Source: Brachycybe producta (taxonomy: Eukaryota > Arthropoda > Diplopoda > Playtdesmida > Andrognathidae). From it: a stretch of DNA of 64,000 nucleotides. The first letter of the stretch is position 1; each line of letters opens with the position of its first letter. This document shows positions 21,026-33,089 of the stretch, piece after piece. The notes beneath the pieces were generated by a model. The model ran no database searches. It was not told the DNA's origin and was given only the letters and a program-made list of their open reading frames with translations. The translations under genes and the position numbers were made by a program. The stretch covers positions 6,858,479-6,922,478 of the forward strand of contig JAUPFP010000003.1 in assembly GCA_036925085.1 (NCBI GenBank), read 5' to 3'.

Positions 21026-21697
21026 TGTTACCTGTAGAATTCAGGTAACAAAATCTCACACTTTTTATTTTTTATTTTTGTGTAGAAATATAATACATAA
21101 ACCAGTTCCTCCTCTTTCCCCCCCTTTTTTGTTTTTACCCAAACAAACACACAAAAGAAAAAACCGCCACTTGAAAGAAATAGGCCTATCCAAAACCTTA
21201 CTGTAGGCTAAACATAAAGTTTTAAAAGCAAAAATGCTCCCCTCTCAAAAACTTATAAAGAAACAAAATTCTCCCCTATTTAAACTTAAAAAATCCCATT
21301 TATTACCCCTCCTTAAAATTCATTCTGCTTCTTAACTTCATTATATAACCCCTGTTGACTTTTATCCCCCTTCCTCTTCTCTTGAAAATACCCAGACATG
21401 AGAACTGTCTGGAGAATGAGGAAACAAACAAAATTCCCCCCTCACAGCCCTAGGCCATCTAGCAACCCAAACAAACAAGACCAAAACAGCCAAGTTCATA
21501 CAAAAAACCCAGACAGGAAGAAAAAAATAAAAAATAATTTTTTGTATGTGTATGATGAAGAAACATGTAGAATCTATGCCCCAACATAGATCTTGCATGG
21601 TTCTTTATGTATTTTAATATGTATGTGTCTACAAATTATGTAAATTAACCATTAACCAATGGGAAGCCTCCAGTGCAAGCCTATGAAGGCCATTTCC

Positions 21698-21704
21698 TAT
21701 AAAA
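21698..21704 (+). promoter_or_regulatory. TATA box of the 5' LTR
   Basis: TATAAAA in the context TTTCCTATAAAATGG. Transcription would start about 25-32 bases downstream, near 21728-21738, making everything before it U3. The same box is present in the 3' LTR. Confidence 0.65.
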
Positions 21705-21790
21705 TGGCCAAAAGTTGGCTCAGAAATTATTAGGACTTTGGCTTTTCAGCCATCTACACTGGAGACTTCTCAGCAGTGAATCTTCTACTA

Positions 21791-21797
21791 GGTAAGA
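21791..21797 (+). promoter_or_regulatory. Strong splice donor in the transcribed part of the LTR
   Basis: The context CTAG/GTAAGAG is a near-consensus 5' splice site about 60 bases downstream of the inferred start site, ahead of any ATG. Retroviruses use such a leader donor to make env and accessory mRNAs. The matching acceptor was not fixed; TTTTTTACAG ending at 28305 is a good acceptor but lies beyond the first env ATGs. In the 3' LTR copy the donor could splice into downstream host sequence. Confidence 0.5.
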
Positions 21798-21842
21798 GTA
21801 TTTGAAGGAGACACATATCTGAGCACTGGTTTCCAAATCACT

Positions 21843-22110
21843 GGAGTACTGTGGTTCAGACTGTGTCTAATCAAAATATTGCTTAACTACCTTGAGAAAG
21901 GATAGCTAAACTGATTTTTTGCAGTCTACAATTGGGGTACTATGGTGCTAAAAGTTTCCTTTCCTTTGGAGTACTGTTAGGCCTAAAAGTTTCCATTTGG
22001 AGTACTATAGAAACTATTGGTTTCCAATTATTTGGAGTACTGTAGTGACTATTGGTTTCCATACTTTGGAGTACTGTAGGACTTATTGGTTTCCAAGTTA
22101 GGAGTACTGT
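21843..22110 (+). promoter_or_regulatory. Seven GGAGTACTGT boxes, roughly 34 bp apart
   Basis: Copies of GGRGTACTRT start at 21843, 21934, 21968, 21999, 22034, 22068 and 22101. The last six are spaced 34, 31, 35, 34 and 33 bp, and between boxes recurs TTGGTTTCCA. The array lies downstream of the TATA box and is repeated in the 3' LTR. A phased array of one motif suggests binding sites for a host DNA- or RNA-binding protein, comparable in arrangement to the Su(Hw) insulator array of Drosophila gypsy, though the motif is different. Confidence 0.7.
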
Positions 22111-22625
22111 AGCTCCAAGGGTTCCCAGTGAGGAACTATAAAGAAAAATCAGTTTGGCTAGTGTGGAGGATTCTACATCATCATGGATTTCTATATGTGG
22201 ATTACATTTTATATGTAAGTGTTATATGTATTTTCTTTTACTATTATTTTTATTTTTTATTGACAATATTTAGCTTTTTATACTTTTATTTCATTTTAAT
22301 GGTCATATTACTCATAGCCTTATTTTTCATTTTCTACACATTTTTTCAAATATTATAAACATGTAATTTCTCAAACCCAATTTTTAAGTTAATCTTATTG
22401 TAATATCAATTTTTGTTTAATTGATTAACCCTATGAAAAAATTCCTAAAATAATCCTTTTATAATATTTTGGTAAAGGTCATGTTAATCCCCATTTATGT
22501 TTATATGAATTAAAATAAAATATTCTTTAACTTAAATAAAATTTGAGTCAATTTGATTTATTTTTTATGGGCCTTCATTGACCCCGAACCTTAAGTCAAA
22601 ATTAACTTCAGTTGGTTATTTTCAA

Positions 22626-22631
22626 CAATAA
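22626..22631 (+). terminator. Polyadenylation signal in the LTR
   Basis: AATAAA in CAACAATAAAGC lies about 30 bases from the LTR end. The equivalent site in the 3' LTR would end the genomic RNA. If it is used, R is very long (about 0.9 kb) and U5 very short; upstream AATAAA sequences near 22513 and 22535 are alternatives. Confidence 0.5.
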
Positions 22632-22661
22632 AGCTATACAGCCGGAAAACAACCAACAAAA

Positions 22662-22680
22662 TGGCGCAGTCGACAGGATC
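22662..22680 (+). other. Primer-binding site, tRNA-Ser-like
   Basis: TGGCGCAGTCGACAGGATC starts three bases after the LTR end. It has the form of the serine-tRNA-complementary sites of the errantiviruses 17.6 and 297 (TGGCGCAGTCGG.AGGAT), with about one or two differences. The tRNA identity is inferred from family knowledge, not from a tRNA gene in this window. Confidence 0.75.
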
Positions 22681-22750
22681 TTAAATTTTTTTTTTGGAAG
22701 AACTAAATTAAATCAAATTGACTCTGACCCTTTTATTTTACTAGTATATA

Positions 22751-23212
22751 ATGAATGATCCCTATCTAATTCCATGTCCTTTTAAGAAAAATCATTGTCT
22801 TATAAAAGCCACCAAGTACAACAGTCATTATATGAGATGCCAGTATAGCCCCCGAAATTTACCAACGGTCTGCCCCAGCTCCTCACCTTCTCAAAATTGG
22901 GTAAGCCAGCCTGTATTTAACCTTCCACCACCTATAGAAGATTGGGATAAAGAAATTCAAGAACAATTTGGGGTAGTTCAGGTTGTAGAACCCTATATTG
23001 ATGAACTCAGTCTAAAAGCCATTACTTGTTCTGAAAACTGGGAGGATGAAACCTACACTGAGGAAGATATCCGAAAACTAGAAGAAGAGGCCCGAGCAGC
23101 TCCCAAGTACAGAAGATTTGTAAATTCCAATGAACTGAGTTACATGACAAAAACCCAAAAAAGAGAATATATTGCAAGAATTAGTAATAGACCAGTAAGA
23201 CCAACTCAATAA
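22751..23212 (+). CDS. ORF0: GTSF1/Asterix-like CHHC zinc-finger protein
   Basis: 153 residues ahead of gag, a position where gypsy elements normally have no gene. Residues 9-30 form a CHHC zinc finger (C9-x5-H15-x10-H26-x3-C30; CPFKKNHCL...HYMRC), the fold of GTSF1/Asterix, U11-48K and TRM13. Residues 62-73 (IEDWDKEIQEQF) and 95-100 (ENWEDE) are tryptophans in acidic context. GTSF1 proteins bind PIWI proteins through such a C-terminal acidic Trp region and enable piRNA-guided cleavage or silencing. Only one finger is present, where GTSF1 has two. The C-terminus is basic (residues 118-153). It starts at the first ATG after the PBS and ends 32 bp before gag ATG. Function as a PIWI-pathway ligand or inhibitor is inference. 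The alternative is an RNA-binding CHHC protein unrelated to piRNAs. Confidence 0.75.
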   Translation: MNDPYLIPCPFKKNHCLIKATKYNSHYMRCQYSPRNLPTVCPSSSPSQNWVSQPVFNLPPPIEDWDKEIQEQFGVVQVVEPYIDELSLKAITCSENWEDETYTEEDIRKLEEEARAAPKYRRFVNSNELSYMTKTQKREYIARISNRPVRPTQ

Positions 23213-23244
23213 TACTTTGGAAATAAAACACCTCTTGTTTCATC

Positions 23245-24252
23245 ATGGCTCAGGCTCAGCCAAACGCTCATCTAAATTTCACCTCTCTAATTCCGAGCTT
23301 TTCGGGAGATGAAAAAGGTCCTACTGCGGAAGATTTTTTTCATCATCTAGAGGATGTTGCCCATCTGGCAGAATGGAATGAGGCATTCCAAATAATTATT
23401 TTCAGGTCCAAGTGTCGAGGTTTGGCAGCTGATTTTCTAAGAGACCATCCAGAAGTAAAAGAAATAACCTCACTATCGGATTTAAGATCTCTTATTAAAC
23501 AAAGATTTCAGCCAACAGAGCCAAGGCAAATAACCCTACAGAAATTTTTTGAAGCTAAACAGGGACATGGTGAAACAGCCATAGAATTTATTTCCAAAGT
23601 ACGCACATTTGGTAGGGCAGTAATTGAAGGAACTCCTACCAGAGATCAAATTGTTACTAGAGATAGTATGATACAGGCCCAAATCATAAAAGGGTTGTTA
23701 CCTAAAGTCCGGAGATTTGTCCTGTCTAGAAACCCTAGAAATCTTGATGAAACCATACAAATAGTGTTGGCAGAGGAAGAAAATGATAAACTTACCCAGA
23801 CAAAATATGGAGTAAACACAATTGAGGTAGAGAAAGATAAAGAAATAGAAGACCTCAAAACAAGAATAAAAGGACTAGAAGAAGACTATAAGAAGAAAAT
23901 CATGGCTCTTGATAAACCTAACTCAGATATGAAAGGATTCACATCTCCAGCAGATCAAGCACCACCAAAGCCACACACCTATGTATGTTTTAAATGTCAG
24001 AAACCAGGTCATTTTGCAAAAGATTGTAGAATGCCTACAAATCTACCACAGCACAGCAGACCACCAACACGATGTTATACATGTAATAGGCTAGGTCATA
24101 CCAGTAAATATTGTCAAAATACCAATAGGAATAATCAGCAGGGAAATTGTCAAAGACATTATAATCATCAGCCGAATTTTCAGAGACAGGGAAATAATCA
24201 GGGGCATGGAAACTTTCAGAGATCATCCAACTACCAAAGACAGGGAAACTAA
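23245..24252 (+). CDS. gag: Gag polyprotein with two CCHC zinc knuckles
   Basis: 335 residues. The N-terminal two-thirds have the helical Ty3/gypsy capsid character: FSGDEKGPTAEDFFHHLEDV, then a stretch with L..R...PTE..QITLQKFFEAKQG and FI.K.R. A predicted coiled coil, rich in Lys and Glu, covers about residues 190-222. Two nucleocapsid knuckles follow, C248-F-K-C-x4-H-x4-C261 and C277-Y-T-C-x4-H-x4-C290, then a Gln/Asn/Gly/Arg-rich tail. It forms the particle and packages genomic RNA. The frame ends at TAA 24250-24252 immediately after a slippery heptamer, so part of the ribosomes should continue into protease. No internal damage was seen. Confidence 0.95.
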   Translation: MAQAQPNAHLNFTSLIPSFSGDEKGPTAEDFFHHLEDVAHLAEWNEAFQIIIFRSKCRGLAADFLRDHPEVKEITSLSDLRSLIKQRFQPTEPRQITLQKFFEAKQGHGETAIEFISKVRTFGRAVIEGTPTRDQIVTRDSMIQAQIIKGLLPKVRRFVLSRNPRNLDETIQIVLAEEENDKLTQTKYGVNTIEVEKDKEIEDLKTRIKGLEEDYKKKIMALDKPNSDMKGFTSPADQAPPKPHTYVCFKCQKPGHFAKDCRMPTNLPQHSRPPTRCYTCNRLGHTSKYCQNTNRNNQQGNCQRHYNHQPNFQRQGNNQGHGNFQRSSNYQRQGN

Positions 24253-24310
24253 AAACTCCCTCAGGTAAACTTGCATGTCAAAAAGGGAGAAGACATTTTA
24301 AATCATGCAA
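24243..24310 (+). promoter_or_regulatory. Programmed -1 frameshift signal (slippery site plus pseudoknot)
   Basis: Slippery heptamer G-GGA-AAC at 24243-24249 is in the gag frame and is followed directly by the gag stop TAA. After a 6-nt spacer, stem 1 is CTCCCT (24256-24261) with AGGGAG (24284-24289). Stem 2 is TTGCATG (24271-24277) in the loop with CATGCAA (24304-24310) downstream, forming an H-type pseudoknot with loops of 9, 6 and 14 nt. The -1 frame is open here and leads into protease. GGGAAAC is a known efficient heptamer, used for example by the gypsy-derived gene PEG10. Confidence 0.88.
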
Positions 24311-24719
24311 AATGGTGAACAACATTAGAGAAAAAACTCACGCATGTCCCATATTCTCTGCATGCATTCTGGGCCACAACCTAAACATATTGTATGATAC
24401 TGGAGCTGCTATATCAGTTATTTCTAGGTCCATGTTTAAGTTGTTAAATGAAAAATATGGCCCCCAACTAGAAAAACTAAACAAAGGAGATAATGTTGAA
24501 ATTATTGCTGCTAATGGTGAACCCTTTCCTACTATGGGTTTGTATCTGTTTCCTCTAAAGCTGAATAAACAGAAGACCGAAAAAGTCATTATGTATGTAA
24601 GCGAAAAGGATCTTTCTCCTAAATACCAAATAATTTTTGGTATAAATGCAATTAAACATTTGGGTCTTAAATACGATCCAACAAATGATTGCATTTTCTA
24701 CAAAGGAAAGGAGATATAA
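24249..24719 (+). CDS. pro: Retroviral-type aspartic protease (pro), reached by -1 frameshift
   Basis: The frame enters from gag by frameshift at 24243-24249; an internal ATG lies at 24312. The active-site motif LYDTGAAISVIS has its catalytic Asp at residue 29 counted from that ATG. The flap and hydrophobic core follow, and the family-typical IIFGINAIKHLGLKYD lies near the end. It cleaves Gag and Pol as a dimer in the particle. The frame ends at a TAA (24717-24719), but the same frame stays open immediately afterwards into reverse transcriptase. The stop is therefore either a point lesion or a readthrough site. Confidence 0.9.
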   Translation, partial: LKTPSGKLACQKGRRHFKSCKMVNNIREKTHACPIFSACILGHNLNILYDTGAAISVISRSMFKLLNEKYGPQLEKLNKGDNVEIIAANGEPFPTMGLYLFPLKLNKQKTEKVIMYVSEKDLSPKYQIIFGINAIKHLGLKYDPTNDCIFYKGKEI

Positions 24720-27700
24720 ATTTATAGGAAAGGAGAAGCCATAAAAATCTTAAATTCTGTTCAAACACGGCCAAGAAACCTACAATGGGTTGCTGATGTT
24801 TTAAATAAAACAGAAGAGAGGCATCACGATAAATTGCAACAACTCCTAACTAGCTATTCAGACATTTTTGCATGCAGTCTAAAAGATCTACAACCAACAA
24901 GCAGGGTAACACAGGAAATCCATTTGACAGATCTAGCTCCTGTTTACATTAGGCCGTACAAGGTACCTCAAAAACAGGAGGCAATTTTGCAGGAGAAAAT
25001 AGATGAGTTGCTTGAGGCCAACATTATAAAGCCCTCAGTGAGCCCTTACAGTGCTCCTTGCATGTTGGTAGGAAAACCTGATGGAAGTCACCGCTTAGTG
25101 GTTGACTTTCGAGCCTTGAATAAAAAGGTAATTGGGGATAAATATCCTCTACCTGAACTCATCAGTGTTAGCAACCAATTAGGCAAAGCTACATACTTTT
25201 CTACTCTAGATCTAGCCAGTGGATTTCACCAAATCCCAGTAGAGAAAAATGACCAACATAAGTTAGGGTTCAGTACAACTTCAGGTCATTATGAGTTTGT
25301 TAGATCACCAATGGGGTTGAAAACATCCCCAAATGTGTATCAAAGGCTAATGGATGATGTTCTGAAAGATTTCAAGGGAAAAATCTGCTTTGTATATATG
25401 GATGACATAATAATTTACAGCAACACCATTGAGGAACACTTTGACAGACTTAGACAGATATTTCAAAGACTAAGGGAAGCAAATTTGAAGGCAAAACCCT
25501 CAAAGTGTATTTTTCTAAAAACAGAAATAAATTACTTGGGACACACATTTAAACAGGGATTCATGAAACCAGGCCCAAACAAGATAGAAGCTATAGAAAA
25601 ATTTCCCAGGCCCCACAATGTGAAGAAAATACAAAGTTTTCTTGGTCTGGTAAATTTTTACAGGAGATTCATTCCTGATTGTGCCAAGGTAGCAGCACCT
25701 CTAACAAGGTTGCTGGGAAAAGATGTTCTCTTTCATTGGACTAATGAATGTGAGCAAAGCTTTCGTATCCTTAAAGAAAGTTTAACTTCCTCTCCTGTTC
25801 TGGTAATGCCTGATTTCAATCAGCCATTTTATCTAACAACAGATGCCAGTAACTTTGCAATTGGTGCCATTTTGGAGCAAAAAGTAAATGGATGCTTACA
25901 TCCAATTTCATATGCTAGCAGAAAACTGAACCCAGCTGAACAAAATTATTCAACCACCTGGAAAGAAGCACTAGCCTGTGTATATGGTGTGAATTATTTT
26001 AGGTACTACTTAATGGGTAGACCATTTACCTTAATAACAGACCATAAACCCTTACAGTATCTTATGACCATGAAGAAGGATAAGGCTATGTTAACTAGAT
26101 GGGCCCTTCAGTTACAACAATACAACTTTGAAATTAAATACAGAGAAGGAAAAAACAATGGAAATGCTGATGCCCTCAGCCGAAACCCTCCAGAAGAAGT
26201 AAATGTGCTACAACAAAACATTTCAATATGGGAAGAAAAAGACATAGTAGCTGACCAAAACAAATGCTCAGAATTAAAACCTTTCATAGACTACCTTTCA
26301 GGATACCCTTCCACCCCACAGGTTCAAAAGGAAGTACAAAAAGCAAGACTGTCACTCAATGAAGATGGTTGGTTGATTAAGATAGATGAATCCACAGCCA
26401 AATTAGTGGTACCCAAACAAAAAAGGGCTCATGTCTTGGCAATGTGCCATGATGCAGCATTTTCTGGACATCTGGGTATTGAAAAAACTCAGAACAGGGT
26501 TGAGAAGAAATTTTTTTGGAAAACTCTTAAACCAGATGTCCGAAAATACTGTGAATCGTGTGAATCTTGCCAGGAAAAGAAAAAACCAGTGGGAAAGGTG
26601 TCTCTAATTAAATTTCCTCCTCCATCAAAACCATTTGAAAGGCTAGGACTTGACATTTTAGGGCCATTACCTACATCCAACAAAGGTAATAAATACATAG
26701 CTGTAATCTGTGATTACCTCTCAAAATATCCTGAGGCATTTGCCATCCCAGACCAGAAAGCTGAAACCATAGCAGCACTTTTGGTGAAGGAAATCTTTTC
26801 AAGGTATGGTTGTTGTAGGGAACTCATAACAGATAGAGGAGCCAATTTCACTTCAGAATTAATTCTGAATATGTGCCGATTGCTAGGTATTAAGAAAATA
26901 TTTACCTCAGCATACCATCCACAAACTGATGGTCTAGTCGAGCGTTTCAATGGAACGCTAATGACAATGCTCTCCCACTTTGTCGAAAACGATCAAAGGA
27001 ATTGGGATGATGAATTGCCTTTAGTGTTAATGGCTTATCGAAGTGCTACACATTCTAGCACTAAAGAAACACCCTACTATCTCCTGTTTGGACAAGATAT
27101 GAGTTTACCTTACAACATCCTAACCAGCAAACCAGCACCAATTTACAACATTGAAGACTATGGCAAAGTTCTCACACGAAGATTACAGTCTGCATATCAA
27201 ACAGCTAGAGAGGCCTTAGAAGTTGCTGCTGAGAAGCAACTAAAATATCAATCAAAGGGAAGGAAAATGAAAGAATTTCAACCTGGGGACAAGGTTTATT
27301 TATATGTTCCCCATGTTCCTGTAGGAAAAACAAAAAAATTGGCAAAATTGTGTAGAGGTCCATATAGAATTTTGGAACAGACATCTCCAGTCAACTATAA
27401 AGTTCAACACAAATATCATAATAGGGACATCCAAATTGTGCATGTTGAGCGGTTAAAGCTAGCAAAAGAAAACAGGCCCTGGGATCTCCAGGAAACACCA
27501 GATGATGATTCAAAAGGCAAATCAATTGAAAAGGGTGTACCAAAAGACCAAAGTTCTGATGAAGAATCAAATGAAAATTTTGATGACTCTGGGAGCCCAA
27601 AACTACCAGGAATTACACGTACTGAAAAACGGAAACATACCGGGGAACCATCCCACAAATATGGTCTAAGAAGCAAAGGTCCTGAAAATCTTTTACCTCC

Positions 27701-28274
27701 CCTAGTCCCAAGAAAACGCACAAGGCGTAGTACACAAACCACTCAAAATGAAAGTGTGACGGAATCAGAGGGGGAAGTTTCAATAGAACAGAGAATAGGA
27801 AATGAAGAAGCACTGCCCGAAATTAATCTAGAAGGATTAAGAGAAGCACTAAGGATAGCAATGGATGAAAACTCACAACGAGTTAGCCCCAAAATGGGAA
27901 ATCAACCAGGACAAACTAGCACAAGGTTAGTAGAAGCTGATATCGATGGTCCAAATACTAGCACAATGCTAGAAAAAGACAAAGAACCTTGTAGCACAGA
28001 AATGGAAACAGAGCCGAACAAGGCTCAAACAGGGTTAACAGATAGTGAGACTGAGACATCCAATTCAAGTACAATACCTGATAATAGGAACTCAGTAGGT
28101 ACCTCAGAAATTCTTCCAGTAGCAGGAACAAGCAATGATGTAAATGTAGAAACTGAAGCGAGTACTTCAAAAGAAGATGAAGGAAATGTAGCAGATCGTT
28201 GGTTAGATGCCCTGGCAAAAGCTTTAAACTCCCTGATAAAAAGGTCTATTGGAAGAAATCCAAATAGATGTTAG
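24720..28274 (+). CDS. pol: Pol: reverse transcriptase, RNase H, integrase
   Basis: Open from the codon after the TAA at 24717. Residue numbers count from the codon at 24834 (a TTG, not a likely start). The RT has VDFRALNKK, the catalytic FVYMDD (YMDD 188-191) and FLGLVNFYRRFI. RNase H begins near 335 with TDASNFAIGA. The integrase zinc domain is HHCC, about residues 539-577. The catalytic triad D607, D667 and E703 shows DD35E spacing and ends in GLVERFNG. A GPY/F-like module, GPYRILEQ, lies near 843. The last 280 residues are a low-complexity Ser/Thr/Glu-rich tail, unusually long for gypsy integrase, without a chromodomain. The frame is intact and ends in TAG, overlapping the first env ATG by seven bases. 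It makes cDNA and inserts it. Confidence 0.96.
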   Translation: MYRKGEAIKILNSVQTRPRNLQWVADVLNKTEERHHDKLQQLLTSYSDIFACSLKDLQPTSRVTQEIHLTDLAPVYIRPYKVPQKQEAILQEKIDELLEANIIKPSVSPYSAPCMLVGKPDGSHRLVVDFRALNKKVIGDKYPLPELISVSNQLGKATYFSTLDLASGFHQIPVEKNDQHKLGFSTTSGHYEFVRSPMGLKTSPNVYQRLMDDVLKDFKGKICFVYMDDIIIYSNTIEEHFDRLRQIFQRLREANLKAKPSKCIFLKTEINYLGHTFKQGFMKPGPNKIEAIEKFPRPHNVKKIQSFLGLVNFYRRFIPDCAKVAAPLTRLLGKDVLFHWTNECEQSFRILKESLTSSPVLVMPDFNQPFYLTTDASNFAIGAILEQKVNGCLHPISYASRKLNPAEQNYSTTWKEALACVYGVNYFRYYLMGRPFTLITDHKPLQYLMTMKKDKAMLTRWALQLQQYNFEIKYREGKNNGNADALSRNPPEEVNVLQQNISIWEEKDIVADQNKCSELKPFIDYLSGYPSTPQVQKEVQKARLSLNEDGWLIKIDESTAKLVVPKQKRAHVLAMCHDAAFSGHLGIEKTQNRVEKKFFWKTLKPDVRKYCESCESCQEKKKPVGKVSLIKFPPPSKPFERLGLDILGPLPTSNKGNKYIAVICDYLSKYPEAFAIPDQKAETIAALLVKEIFSRYGCCRELITDRGANFTSELILNMCRLLGIKKIFTSAYHPQTDGLVERFNGTLMTMLSHFVENDQRNWDDELPLVLMAYRSATHSSTKETPYYLLFGQDMSLPYNILTSKPAPIYNIEDYGKVLTRRLQSAYQTAREALEVAAEKQLKYQSKGRKMKEFQPGDKVYLYVPHVPVGKTKKLAKLCRGPYRILEQTSPVNYKVQHKYHNRDIQIVHVERLKLAKENRPWDLQETPDDDSKGKSIEKGVPKDQSSDEESNENFDDSGSPKLPGITRTEKRKHTGEPSHKYGLRSKGPENLLPPLVPRKRTRRSTQTTQNESVTESEGEVSIEQRIGNEEALPEINLEGLREALRIAMDENSQRVSPKMGNQPGQTSTRLVEADIDGPNTSTMLEKDKEPCSTEMETEPNKAQTGLTDSETETSNSSTIPDNRNSVGTSEILPVAGTSNDVNVETEASTSKEDEGNVADRWLDALAKALNSLIKRSIGRNPNRC

Positions 28275-30133
28275 AGGCAGGATGTCTAATGAAACTTTTT
28301 TACAGCCTCCTAATACTTGGGGTATGCAGTCAAGAAGAGAAGAAAGATACCTATGAAGTGGAAATATGTAAATGGGGTAACACTGGAAGATCATGTCGAG
28401 TGGTGACATCCACTGAAAAACCAAAGTATGCACAAAACATCTGTCATGGGGGTTATTGTTATAAGTGCATAATTAAATGGACCACAAGGGTCATAACGTC
28501 AAAAAATGAAACTCTTAATGCATCATCTTTTATCATTGAACAAAGTGAAGAGGTGGGAGGAAATGATGATCTATTTAAATGCCTAAATAGAGGACTGCCA
28601 TGTTCTTGTAAAAATACATCCTGTTCTGGAACAAACCAGTATTGCATGATATCAAATAAATGCAATGGTGAGTTACAAGATTGCCACTGTGAGGTGGTAA
28701 AGGCCAAAACCCAATTCACACATATTGATGTGAATGGAAATGAACGAACGAATTTTGAAATAGCATCCTTCAAAGAATGTTTTTTCAATATCTCGAATCA
28801 TGAAGTCAGTATGGCAACCCAACGAAAATTGTTAGGTACTGATTCTATTAGTACCTCTATGGGTGATCATTTTATAAAGTTTAGTGATCCTGTGGTTACA
28901 GTCAGTACCAAAGGCACACTAATACTAAGAAAAGATGGCATTGAACAAATCTGCCAAATAAAGGATGATAAACAAGTTATCATTCCTAGTGAATTTAGTA
29001 TGGATTCGGGAATGCTCCACATTTTATTTGTGACTTCTGATGGAAAAACATTGGAAGGCACGTTTACAATTGACGGAAATAGCATCTGTCACCGAATAAA
29101 GTGTATATTTTGTTTAACATTTATATATAATCTGTCTTGCATGCCTACATATTTATCTTATGGCATTATTATACTATTGACATTGTTAACAAGTATGTCT
29201 ATTTTATATGTTAGAGTAGCCATAAAAAGTGTCATTGATATTATCAAAATTATATTTAAAGTGTATTTTTCGTTTTATTTTGCTGTTAAAAAATGCTTAA
29301 AATTAAGTATGATCTTAGGAGTAGCAAGTGGAAATGCTATTCGAAGACGAGCCATCCAAACAAAAAACAGAATTGAAAATCTAAGACTGCTTGAAGAAGG
29401 TATACCAAACCCAATAAACCCAAATTTCATGTATATTGTTCTTTTTATTGGAGTTCTTCTTAGTTTATGCTCAGGTGCACAACTAAAGTGTACTGAACAT
29501 AAACTTATTAAATCACAAAATTTAGAGTGCCAAGATACACCAACTGGGAGGAAATGCTTTATATCCACCCAAGCTCAAATCACCCTCACCAATTTAGAAT
29601 ACACATCATGTTTGTGGTTACTAGATAACCAAGAAGAAAATTTGGGCAGTCTGGAAATAACCTTCAATTCTGTAAATTGTGAATGGATGACTCAAAGAAT
29701 GTACTACACTTTTCCCACCAAACTATACACCATAAATCAGGTTGCTTGTCCCCAAAATGCTTACTGTGGCTGGGGCGATCACTGTCATAAAGACTATAAA
29801 TTTGAAGCATTAACAAAAGAAGCTTTAGATTGGCCTGGGATAACAGACTGTTTTGGGGGAGATTCAGGAAGCATGTGCCCAATAATGTTGGACCAACCAT
29901 GCCACCACTTTAGATGGTATCTAAAACCTGATTATTTATATACCTATGAAGTCAAAAGAATAGTTTCAATGTCATGTGCTCCCACAGTCAAAGTAGTACT
30001 CAAATTAAATGGTACAGAAGAAACATTTTTTGTTAAAAAATCCAGAACCCTACCTAGGGATATATCCATTGAAATACTTGGCACATTTGACCAAGCCACA
30101 GACATTATATCTAGGCATCTGAAAACAGCTTAA
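28268..30133 (+). CDS. env: Envelope glycoprotein precursor, phlebovirus-like Gn/Gc layout
   Basis: 621 residues. The second Met (residue 8) precedes a signal peptide (KLFYSLLILGVCSQ). A cysteine-rich ectodomain with N-glycosylation sites follows, then a membrane segment at about 295-318, an internal basic and hydrophobic tail, and a second hydrophobic segment at 387-403 ending in a plausible signal-peptidase site before QLKC. This order (Gn, membrane anchor, tail, internal signal, Gc) is that of bunyaviral (phlebovirus) M polyproteins. The Gc part has GWGDHCH and a Cys/Gly-rich DWPGITDCFGGDSG region, comparable to the class II fusion-loop region. Phlebovirus-type env is documented in BEL/Pao Tas elements; in a gypsy element it would be a separate capture. 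The frame ends at TAA, overlapping the next ATG. Confidence 0.75.
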   Translation: MLEAGCLMKLFYSLLILGVCSQEEKKDTYEVEICKWGNTGRSCRVVTSTEKPKYAQNICHGGYCYKCIIKWTTRVITSKNETLNASSFIIEQSEEVGGNDDLFKCLNRGLPCSCKNTSCSGTNQYCMISNKCNGELQDCHCEVVKAKTQFTHIDVNGNERTNFEIASFKECFFNISNHEVSMATQRKLLGTDSISTSMGDHFIKFSDPVVTVSTKGTLILRKDGIEQICQIKDDKQVIIPSEFSMDSGMLHILFVTSDGKTLEGTFTIDGNSICHRIKCIFCLTFIYNLSCMPTYLSYGIIILLTLLTSMSILYVRVAIKSVIDIIKIIFKVYFSFYFAVKKCLKLSMILGVASGNAIRRRAIQTKNRIENLRLLEEGIPNPINPNFMYIVLFIGVLLSLCSGAQLKCTEHKLIKSQNLECQDTPTGRKCFISTQAQITLTNLEYTSCLWLLDNQEENLGSLEITFNSVNCEWMTQRMYYTFPTKLYTINQVACPQNAYCGWGDHCHKDYKFEALTKEALDWPGITDCFGGDSGSMCPIMLDQPCHHFRWYLKPDYLYTYEVKRIVSMSCAPTVKVVLKLNGTEETFFVKKSRTLPRDISIEILGTFDQATDIISRHLKTA

Positions 30134-30489
30134 TGACCACTAGGGCAATAAATTTAAAAACCACCCCAGAAAAACATATGATCCAGTTAAAACTTGATAC
30201 CAAATGTATTCATGATAAAATATGTTTAACTTCAAGAGTAGGGTCATCTTGTGAAGTTTTTCAGGGTTGTTTTGAAGACCCTCCTTTACAACTTGATCAA
30301 TATAACTTATCTTCTTCCTCCTCAATAGCAGGATATGCCCCAGGGATTCCATTTAGTATGTCTAGTGTAATGCATGACATTTTTGGCTCTTTAGGAACCT
30401 CCCTCTACACATCTGTTGTAATAATTCTGTCTTTAATATTGGTCATATACATGTTCTCATGTGTATTGAGTATTCTAAGGGCCAAGTAA
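30133..30489 (+). CDS. C-terminal env segment with membrane anchor (separate frame)
   Basis: 118 residues whose ATG shares its A with the TAA of the preceding env frame (TAATG). It has four cysteines in the first 50 residues, then a Ser/Pro-rich stem and one strong membrane segment (about residues 90-111, SLYTSVVIILSLILVIYMF) followed by a short tail ending LRAK. It supplies the stem and anchor that the 621-residue frame lacks, so the two belong together functionally. The frame is also open for six codons upstream of the ATG. Either a one-base indel split env, or UAAUG termination-reinitiation expresses it. Which of these holds is not decided by one copy. Confidence 0.7.
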   Translation: MTTRAINLKTTPEKHMIQLKLDTKCIHDKICLTSRVGSSCEVFQGCFEDPPLQLDQYNLSSSSSIAGYAPGIPFSMSSVMHDIFGSLGTSLYTSVVIILSLILVIYMFSCVLSILRAK

Positions 30490-30535
30490 AAGGCCCAATC
30501 AAAAGGCTAAATGGCTTGACCAATGGGAGCCTAGT

Positions 30536-30766
30536 ATGACAGAAAAAAATGTGCTATATAACCAACATACCTTGAAAAAACTTTTAAAAATTGTTACTTG
30601 TTTATGTGTGAGAAATCACAAAAAGTGTAAAGTCGGCATCCAGTTCAGCAACCAAAAAAGTGAAAGTGTAGAAGTGTGTGAATTTGAAGTGTGCATTAAT
30701 CAAACAAAACAAATTCTGTGGAAATGGCATCCTTTGAACAGCAGTTGTGTGCTCCGGATAGACTAA
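30536..30766 (+). CDS. Small Cys-containing accessory ORF, unknown
   Basis: 76 residues with ATG start, between env and the second accessory ORF. It has a basic N-terminal third (HTLKKLLKIV), five cysteines in two groups (TCLCVRNHKKC and VCEFEVC), and one NSS glycosylation sequon near the end, but no signal peptide. I recognise no family. It may be a genuine accessory gene or an exon of one; length alone does not exclude chance. Confidence 0.4.
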   Translation: MTEKNVLYNQHTLKKLLKIVTCLCVRNHKKCKVGIQFSNQKSESVEVCEFEVCINQTKQILWKWHPLNSSCVLRID

Positions 30767-30857
30767 CCAAGGGAATACACACTAAGTTCATGAGAGAACT
30801 ATTGAAAAAAAGAGGGAAGCTAGAGGTGAAACAACAATAGAACTCAAAAAAATAATA

Positions 30858-31388
30858 ATGAGTTCTAAAACCACTCAAATGATTGAAAGGGCCTCTAGAC
30901 AAATAAATAAACTAAAGGCCAAGAACCAAGAAACTACCAAAACATCAACAAGGGCTCCAACATCCACACCAACCTCAACAAAATTATCAACAACTACAAC
31001 ATCATCATCAACACATGGTCTGCAAAAGGAAATTCTTCAGGAAAAGGATGAAATCATTTTCCTGGAAACTGTGCAAGGTGCTAAAAGAAAACTGGAGGAA
31101 CAAGGAACCTCCACAATGAAAAAAAGAAAAAATGAGCCTACCAGCAAAAGGATAAACTCAACCAAGAATTCACCAAAGCCATCCACCACAACTAAACCAT
31201 CAACAAGGGTGAGAAAAGAAACTCTTGACTTAAATGTAGAGGACATTTTGAAAGAAATTCCACTGGTCCCAGCCCTGCTGAGCCCCATACAAGGAAACAA
31301 CAAAGAAGACAACAAAAAGAAAACAAGGTCTCAAAAAAGAAATATGAGACATAAGAAATGTCGCCAATTGTTTAAAACTTTATTTTGA
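30858..31388 (+). CDS. Basic Ser/Thr-rich accessory ORF (Rev/Rex-like layout)
   Basis: 176 residues between env and the PPT. A Ser/Thr-rich linker spans about residues 28-54 (TSTRAPTSTPTSTKLSTTTT). Basic, nuclear-signal-like clusters are MKKRKNE at about 86-92 and KKKTRSQKRNMRHKK near the C-terminus. Between them is a leucine/isoleucine-spaced segment, LNVEDILKEIPLVPALL, resembling a nuclear export signal. Basic RNA-binding-like and export-like motifs together in a 3' retroviral ORF recall Rev/Rex proteins of complex retroviruses; this is an analogy of layout, not homology. It is an uninterrupted frame in the region typical of accessory genes. Confidence 0.55.
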   Translation: MSSKTTQMIERASRQINKLKAKNQETTKTSTRAPTSTPTSTKLSTTTTSSSTHGLQKEILQEKDEIIFLETVQGAKRKLEEQGTSTMKKRKNEPTSKRINSTKNSPKPSTTTKPSTRVRKETLDLNVEDILKEIPLVPALLSPIQGNNKEDNKKKTRSQKRNMRHKKCRQLFKTLF

Positions 31389-31441
31389 AAACATTGCATG
31401 CATGTAAAACTGCATGAAATGTAATTTTGTTGTTGTGGTTT

Positions 31442-31453
31442 AGGGGATAGGAA
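31442..31453 (+). other. Polypurine tract
   Basis: AGGGGATAGGAA directly abuts the TG of the 3' LTR. With one T it is imperfect but correctly placed to prime plus-strand DNA synthesis. Confidence 0.8.
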
Positions 31454-33089
31454 TGTTACCTGTAGAATTCAGGTAACAAAATCTCACACTTTTTATTTTT
31501 TATTTTTGTGTAGAAATATAATACATAAACCAGTTCCTCCTCTTTCCCCCCCCCTTTTTTGTTTTTACCCAAACAAACACACAAAAGAAAAAACCGCCAC
31601 TTGAAAGAAATAGGCCTATCCAAAACCTTACTGTAGGCTAAACATAAAGTTTTAAAAGCAAAAATGCTCCCCTCTCAAAAACTTTTAAAGAAACAAAATT
31701 CTCCCCTATTTAAACTTAAAAAATCCCATTTATTACCCCTCCTTAAAATTCATTCTGCTTCTTAACTTCATTATATAACCCCTGTTGACTTTTATCCCCC
31801 TTCCTCTTCTCTTGAAAATACCCAGACATGAGAACTGTCTGGAGAATGAGGAAACAAACAAAATTCCCCCTCACAGCCCTAGGCCATCTAGCAACCCAAA
31901 CAAACAAGACCAAAACAGCCAAGTTCACACAAAAAACCCAGACAGGAAGAAAAAAATAAAAAATAATTTTTTGTATGTGTATGATGAAGAAACATGTAGA
32001 ATCTATGCCCCAACATAGATCTTGCATGGTTCTTTATGTATTTTAATATGTATGTGTCTACAAATTATGTAAATTAACCATTAACCAATGGGAAGCCTCC
32101 AGTGCAAGCCTATGAAGGCCATTTCCTATAAAATGGCCAAAAGTTGGCTCAGAAATTATTAGGACTTTGGCTTTTCAGCCATCTACACTGGAGACTTCTC
32201 AGCAGTGAATCTTCTACTAGGTAAGAGTATTTGAAGGAGACACATATCTGAGCACTGGTTTCCAAATCACTGGAGTACTGTGGTTCAGACTGTGTCTAAT
32301 CAAAATATTGCTTAACTACCTTGAGAAAGGATAGCTAAACTGATTTTTTGCAGTCTACAATTGGGGTACTATGGTGCTAAAAGTTTCCTTTCCTTTGGAG
32401 TACTGTTAGGCCTAAAAGTTTCCATTTGGAGTACTATAGAAACTATTGGTTTCCAATTATTTGGAGTACTGTAGTGACTATTGGTTTCCATACTTTGGAG
32501 TACTGTAGGACTTATTGGTTTCCAAGTTAGGAGTACTGTAGCTCCAAGGGTTCCCAGTGAGGAACTATAAAGAAAAATCAGTTTGGCTAGTGTGGAGGAT
32601 TCTACATCATCATGGATTTCTATATGTGGATTACATTTTATATGTAAGTGTTATATGTATTTTCTTTTACTATTATTTTTATTTTTTATTGACAATATTT
32701 AGCTTTTTATACTTTTATTTCATTTTAATGGTCATATTACTCATAGCCTTATTTTTCATTTTCTACACATTTTTTCAAATATTATAAACATGTAATTTCT
32801 CAAACCCAATTTTTAAGTTAATCTTATTGTAATATCAATTTTTGTTTAATTGATTAACCCTATGAAAAAATTCCTAAAATAATCCTTTTATAATATTTTG
32901 GTAAAGGTCATGTTAATCCCCATTTATATGTTTATATGAATTAAAATAAAATATTCTTTAACTTAAATAAAATTTGAGTCAATTTGATTTATTTTTTATG
33001 GGCCTTCATTGACCCCGAACCTTAAGTCAAAATTAACTTCAGTTGGTTATTTTCAACAATAAAGCTATACAGCCGGAAAACAACCAACA
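31454..33089 (+). repeat. 3' LTR of the provirus
   Basis: It matches the 5' LTR along its whole length. The differences are a poly-C run two longer near 31551, T for A at 31685, one C fewer near 31870, C for T at 31928, and a 2-bp AT insertion near 32928. It is followed by TATG, the target duplication. It carries the same TATA box, donor, phased repeats and AATAAA as the 5' LTR. Confidence 0.96.

Follow-up and report, generated by a model that had tools for sequence, protein, structure and literature searches.

The 64,000-nt stretch of Brachycybe producta DNA analyzed here (hereafter, the window) harbors an env-bearing element of the Ty3/gypsy type, in which gag is preceded, on the far side of the primer binding site, by an open reading frame, here termed ORF0, whose product is probably a true homolog of GTSF1/Asterix (UPF0224). 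On the basis of its sequence, we tentatively propose that ORF0 is a captured, one-finger homolog of GTSF1 that may act as a PIWI-engaging decoy devoid of full cofactor activity, a reading whose chances we put just below even.

The features of the element are listed in Table 1. Over 1632 aligned positions its two LTRs agree at 1630, the alignment containing three small gaps, and the element is flanked on both sides by a 4-bp target-site repeat (TATG); hence, the insertion looks recent. The LTRs, the primer binding site and the target-site repeat are hallmarks of Ty3/gypsy elements, and the domain order (gag, protease, reverse transcriptase, RNase H, integrase) is that of the Ty3/gypsy elements (Metaviridae). 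ORF0, the first long ORF past the 5' LTR, follows the primer binding site (from 22662) and precedes the ATG of gag (23245), which starts 32 bases downstream of it in a different frame. This map of LTRs, primer binding site and gag bears out an earlier note on this DNA, which had placed ORF0 ahead of gag in a retrovirus-like element; the extent of the frame and its four finger residues are also exactly as that note had described them, and W50, W65 and W97 are present, with W65 inside EDWDKE. The primer tRNA of the window element may be a tRNA-Ser.

Table 1. Features of the window element and of two cassettes in sister elements
Feature	Position	Strand	Basis or remark
LTR element	21026-33089		env-bearing Ty3/gypsy type
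5' LTR (TGTTAC...AACA)	21026-22658	+	LTR comparison
Primer binding site TGGCGCAGTCGACAGGAT	22662-22679	+	
ORF0, one-finger GTSF1-like protein, 153 aa	22751-23212	+	
ORF0 CHHC finger (C9, H15, H26, C30)	22775-22840	+	
C41-P42, possible second-finger relic of GTSF1	22871-22876	+	
EDWDKE motif (W65)	22937-22954	+	alignment to vertebrate GTSF1 EDWDKD
SENWEDE motif (W97)	23030-23050	+	host GTSF1 counterpart SENWEL
gag, two CCHC zinc knuckles	23245-24252	+	ORF and Pfam
Aspartic protease	24312-24719	+	ORF and Pfam
Reverse transcriptase, RNase H, integrase, long C-terminal tail	24834-28274	+	ORF and Pfam
env, Phlebovirus_G2 fusion domain (E 3.7e-19)	28268-30133	+	ORF and Pfam
3' LTR	31454-33089	+	LTR comparison
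Sister cassette	L047:653-1841, L044, L036 (G000:C7)		
Sister cassette	L048:750-1841, L045, L039 (G000:C13)	-	

Three further observations concern the coding content of these elements. Ahead of the 3' LTR, a Ser/Thr/Lys-rich ORF of 176 aa without Pfam match (30858-31388) is a possible further accessory gene. Protease and reverse transcriptase share one frame (24198-28274), which a stop codon interrupts in the window copy and which is open in copies of other lineages (L022, L031 and L032); the pol gene of the window copy may thus be broken, or its stop may be read through. Finally, env-like ORFs of the phlebovirus type were recognized by eye after pol in L022, L023, L025, L030 and L032.

ORF0 is not restricted to the window, since 42 matches to it were found in the organism's own genome (295 Mb). 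Ten of these are stop-free from residue 1-2 to at least residue 147, with nine of the ten beginning with ATG, and two other insertions carry an ORF0 identical to that of the window. The closely inspected copies were sorted by sequence into six lineages: A (the window, L002-L008 and L012/L013), B (L009-L011), C (L014, which overlaps L025), D (L015, which overlaps L032, together with L016 and L018-L021), E (L022, L023 and L030) and F (L026 and L031). The open frame is conserved across the six lineages, and gag or a gag remnant lies downstream of ORF0 in at least one copy of every lineage, with no gag ORF found in the inspected stretch after ORF0 in L010 and L026.

The comparison of substitution rates across copies that the earlier note had proposed was carried out with the NG86 method and gave dN/dS values of 0.11-0.33 in 16 of the 26 between-lineage pairs, the other ten yielding no dS. 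The ratio is 0.11 for A-B, 0.16-0.18 for D-E and 0.18-0.19 for E-F, and ranges from 0.12 to 0.33 in the remaining estimable pairs, which are near saturation because their dS lies between 1.6 and 4.6; within-lineage pairs are too close to use (no synonymous change in D-D and a ratio of 1.63 at a dS of 0.011 in E-E). The notion that ORF0 is a chance or artefactual frame without function, with which the empty outcome of the Pfam and NCBIfam scans of ORF0 would agree, is therefore rejected as extremely improbable, given that the frame is conserved over six lineages and that between-lineage dN/dS is far below 1. At the same time, dN is higher in ORF0 than in gag in all ten pairs for which both genes are available, by 2.2- to 4.1-fold if the mosaic D-F pair (9.9-fold) is set aside, with ratios of 4.1 for A-B, 2.8 for D-E and 2.2 for E-F (N-terminal ORF0 part only). 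Taken together, the low dN/dS and the excess of dN over gag indicate that ORF0 is maintained as a protein, yet is evolving faster than gag. As a separate observation, lineage F, examined by comparing L031:2572-7193 with L032 and L022, comes closest to D in gag and pol (150-base windows reach 99%) and to E across ORF0, a mosaic pattern suggesting that the ORF0 segment has been exchanged by recombination.

The kinship with GTSF1 put forward in the earlier note is upheld by a phmmer search of the PDB, by a profile match to the host gene and by alignment to vertebrate GTSF1s, but not by Pfam. In the CHHC profile search that the note had asked for, naming beforehand the lack of a significant match as evidence against its claim, none of the eight ORF0s significantly matched the Pfam CHHC model (PF05253). 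A phmmer search with the lineage A ORF0 against 177,635 PDB sequences, on the other hand, retrieved mouse GTSF1 as its sole match (E 1.3e-5), and GTSF1 was also the best match, at non-significant E-values, for the ORF0s of lineages B (0.091) and C (0.023). It likewise ranked top for the eight-row ORF0 profile, but at an E-value of 0.1. The solved structure of GTSF1 is PDB entry 6X46. When a custom GTSF1 profile was used, only two of the eight ORF0s outscored all of 20,000 shuffles.

Comparison with the GTSF1 gene of the host itself was made possible by its location, with a piece of mouse GTSF1, at L035 (G000:C24:568397-569380), where two finger exons and a Trp exon are present; the exons were modelled by eye, exons 4-5 being hand-made, and the neighboring gene presumably encodes a protein resembling an acireductone dioxygenase. 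Aligned by hhalign, the ORF0 profile and host GTSF1 yield a score of 39.0 (E 6.2e-6), which none of 400 shuffles equaled (best shuffle, 22.1). Split into finger and tail, ORF0 matches the corresponding part of the host protein both times (0 of 200 shuffles in each case), and the crossed comparisons of finger against tail are negative. Host exons 4-5, having been chosen partly by likeness to ORF0, were omitted from one comparison, in which exons 1-3 alone match the ORF0 profile at the Trp motif (E 3e-4, 0 of 200 shuffles). When the host locus was scanned blindly as 545 segments, the two finger exons came first (E 7e-4) and third (E 0.053) with the ORF0 finger profile, and the host Trp exon came first with the ORF0 Trp profile, at a weak E-value of 0.13. 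The C-terminal likeness between ORF0 (FVNSNELSYMTKTQKREY) and host GTSF1 (FRNPSTLSGMKPAQKKAF) is tentative, because exons 4-5 were picked by eye partly on its account and were missed by the blind scan, being absent from its best six of 545 segments.

An automatic MAFFT alignment that included 21 vertebrate GTSF1s, out of 120 listed, superimposes the ORF0 finger on finger 1 and EDWDKE on EDWDKD, and it brings C41-P42 onto the first Cys-Pro of GTSF1 finger 2, with a C-x10-CP spacing equal to that of host GTSF1. The split profile comparison, however, puts the ORF0 finger on host finger 2, and the parentage of the ORF0 finger (finger 1 or finger 2) is thus ambiguous. ORF0 appears to share with GTSF1 a CHHC finger of the IxAxxYxxHxxxC pattern and has in common with it, at the level of sequence, an acidic Trp tail with EDWDK; the motif SENWE is a further common feature of ORF0 and host GTSF1, and the two proteins are of similar length (153 aa and, in our own gene model, 159 aa). 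GTSF1/Asterix, in contrast, has two tandem CHHC fingers, of which ORF0 has one, the second being reduced to CP, and ORF0 differs also in being intronless and encoded by a retroelement. In the tail, E95, W97, E98 and E100 are invariant across all eight aligned ORF0 rows. As for the zinc ligands, the GTSF1 finger follows the pattern CPx4Hx9Hx3C in the accessible part of PMC9539491; lineages A and B have C-H-H-C ligands with x10 where the GTSF1 pattern has x9, and in four of the six lineages (C-F) the second ligand is Cys instead of His. C-H-H-C was considered as the ancestral state of ORF0, and C-C-H-C is at least as likely, since finger ORFs in sister elements carry CPx4C.

Structure prediction, also suggested in the earlier note, did not yield a confident finger: AlphaFold2 reached a pLDDT of 40.5 for ORF0 alone and of 59 when the 21 GTSF1s were supplied as the alignment, with confidence in the C-terminal helices only. 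A search of 5.77 billion protein sequences, which scores only candidates sharing short words and at whose size GTSF1 itself would be hard to reach, returned nothing at E 0.001 or at E 1 for ORF0 alone and for the eight-row alignment; no annotated close relative has therefore surfaced elsewhere. No relatives emerged either when viral contigs were scanned with pol, env and the alignment of ORF0s.

Related elements were identified through gag, for which the organism's own genome contains at least 121 matches, a lower bound in that 120 of 1113 candidates were scored; among the gag matches listed, many have 44-58% identity and lie away from ORF0 sites. The stretch ahead of gag was examined in eight such sister elements (L036-L043), and at E 0.01 the ORF0 profile matches none of them, the Trp ORF of L036 coming nearest (E 0.042). 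Ahead of gag, three of them (L038, L041 and L042) have a primer site and lack any CPx4C ORF, and the other five (L036, L037, L039, L040 and L043) have other small pre-gag ORFs with CPx4C...CxxH motifs. In two of the three sister elements that were followed upstream, a primer site identical to that of the window element lies about 4 kb before gag, and these 4 kb hold roughly eight to ten small ORFs, mostly rich in Cys and His. Several types of small ORF recur among the cassettes of sister elements, and none of ten that were scanned reaches the Pfam cut-off.

One ORF with a CPWx3C...HxxxC finger is present in each of L046, L047 and L048, and these fingers match that of ORF0 in single comparisons (E 1.2e-4, 2.3e-5 and 6.8e-4, respectively) and do not match host GTSF1. 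In a blind scan of the sister stretches, two of the finger ORFs rank first and second (E 0.011 and 0.021) and the third has an E-value of 0.69; searched against the PDB, the L048 finger finds the APLF zinc finger first, at a non-significant E-value of 0.22, and GTSF1 is absent from the list. In addition, L036 and L039 each have a separate ORF containing ERDWDLQ, for which the score against the ORF0 tail is reached by 0 of 100 shuffles in L036 and by 6 of 100 in L039. ORF0 might belong to a home-grown family of small zinc-binding ORFs ahead of gag, its likeness to GTSF1 amounting to finger spacing plus acidic tryptophans. We deem such an origin improbable. It would agree with the several small CPx4C Cys/His ORFs that precede gag in sister elements, with the three finger ORFs that match ORF0 and not host GTSF1, with the C-C-H-C ligands of most ORF0 lineages and with the lack of a Pfam match for ORF0, but it does not account for the finger and tail matching host GTSF1 separately and in the same order while the crossed controls are negative, for three divergent ORF0s all having GTSF1 as their best match among 177,635 PDB sequences, or for the exact EDWDK motif and C-x10-CP spacing.

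Among related elements, the DNA that separates the primer site from gag is found empty, with a single ORF0 or with a cassette, and so constitutes a slot for accessory genes in this clade. The primer sites themselves vary, being TGGCGCAGTCGACAGGAT or one base off in A, C, L040, L042, L047 and L048, TGGCGTCGTGAACAGGAT in B, D, E and L038, and of a third form in L041; this alternation suggests that members of the clade may have changed their primer tRNA.

With GTSF1 as the probable source of ORF0, we propose that an intronless coding sequence resembling GTSF1 was inserted downstream of the primer binding site and ahead of gag in an ancestral element of this env-bearing clade, that the second finger collapsed after capture, and that one finger of RNA type and the acidic Trp tail have been retained under purifying selection, as the sequences support. 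According to the accessible portions of the respective reports, PIWI is bound by W98, W107 and W112 of mouse GTSF1, whose replacement reduces the affinity by a factor of more than 60 and leaves the rate at saturation unchanged (PMC9385479), and W99 of silkworm BmGtsf1L is required for binding of Vreteno and strengthens binding of Ago3 (PMC10711660). The most likely action of ORF0 would be that of a decoy: its Trp tail would engage PIWI-piRNA complexes, or their Tudor partners, on transcripts of the element itself, and in missing the second finger ORF0 would not provide the full boost that GTSF1 gives to slicing or silencing. Since no other ORF precedes it on the genomic RNA, ORF0 could be produced early, and an element that bears env may rely less on the fitness of its current host than a strictly vertical one.

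A different role could rest on the finger. Of the two GTSF1 fingers, the first binds RNA and makes contact with tRNA, as stated in the accessible text of PMC9539491, ORF0 adjoins the primer binding site, and lineage A retains the basic finger positions (IKATKYNSHYMRC vs IRACRFPYHLIKC), one of which is Ser in lineages B and D-F. A GTSF1-derived ORF0 might then serve the element directly, its finger binding the tRNA primer or the genomic RNA for priming or packaging and leaving silencing unaffected. This role seems rather unlikely to us, since it leaves the acidic Trp motif, the most constant part of the tail, unexplained, gag already provides two CCHC knuckles, and the primer site varies between lineages (TGGCGCAGTCGACAGG vs TGGCGTCGTGAACAGG) that have ORF0 in common. 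If the decoy reading is instead extended to the whole clade, these retroelements would encode a GTSF1 mimic as an early, pre-gag counter-defence, and in sister elements the slot would have grown into an arsenal of small zinc-protein antagonists, in which one or two elements would have the GTSF1-like Trp tail encoded by a separate ORF; we regard this broader picture as a possibility, albeit a doubtful one.

Extra ORFs, or an ORF ahead of gag, are features of Ogre-type LTR elements. Host piRNA genes evolve fast, but direct protein weapons of transposons against the piRNA pathway are, to our knowledge, scarce. To judge by its title, a 2013 paper by Fu and coworkers reportedly deals with an anti-silencing factor encoded by a plant transposon, which would resemble ORF0 as a transposon accessory protein acting against silencing and which presumably differs from it in element class, silencing pathway and protein. 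The TART-A retroelement of Drosophila also carries a piece of a piRNA-pathway gene (nxf2), for which counter-defence has been proposed, but the captured piece acts via piRNAs against nxf2, as described in the available text of PMC7785250, whereas ORF0 is an open, selected protein frame. An accessory slot is likewise present in LTR elements of bdelloids, with acquired, exonuclease-like ORF3s (PMC5408684), and Retrosat2 has an accessory ORF of its own, also called ORF0; the accessible text on these two systems describes no relationship to GTSF1 for their extra ORFs. Within the accessible text of the open-licence PubMed Central literature, which does not extend to subscription journals and preprints, no retroelement-encoded GTSF1 was found. 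Host-gene capture and counter-defence by transposable elements are already known in principle, and what is new, within the literature searchable here, is that a retroelement carries a GTSF1-like protein under selection. Judging from their available portions, a 2020 paper considers the examples of such counter-defence surprisingly few (PMC7785250), and a 2025 paper, in which a Drosophila transposon with piRNAs targeting a piRNA factor constitutes a recent exception, calls for more probing of transposon-encoded anti-silencing (PMC12992792).

Against this background, a GTSF1 homolog within an env-bearing retroelement represents a concrete and testable candidate for counter-defence, and ORF0, as a natural one-finger GTSF1, provides a means to probe the role of the second finger. 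If the decoy reading is true, the ORF0 of the element may weaken the silencing of the element itself.
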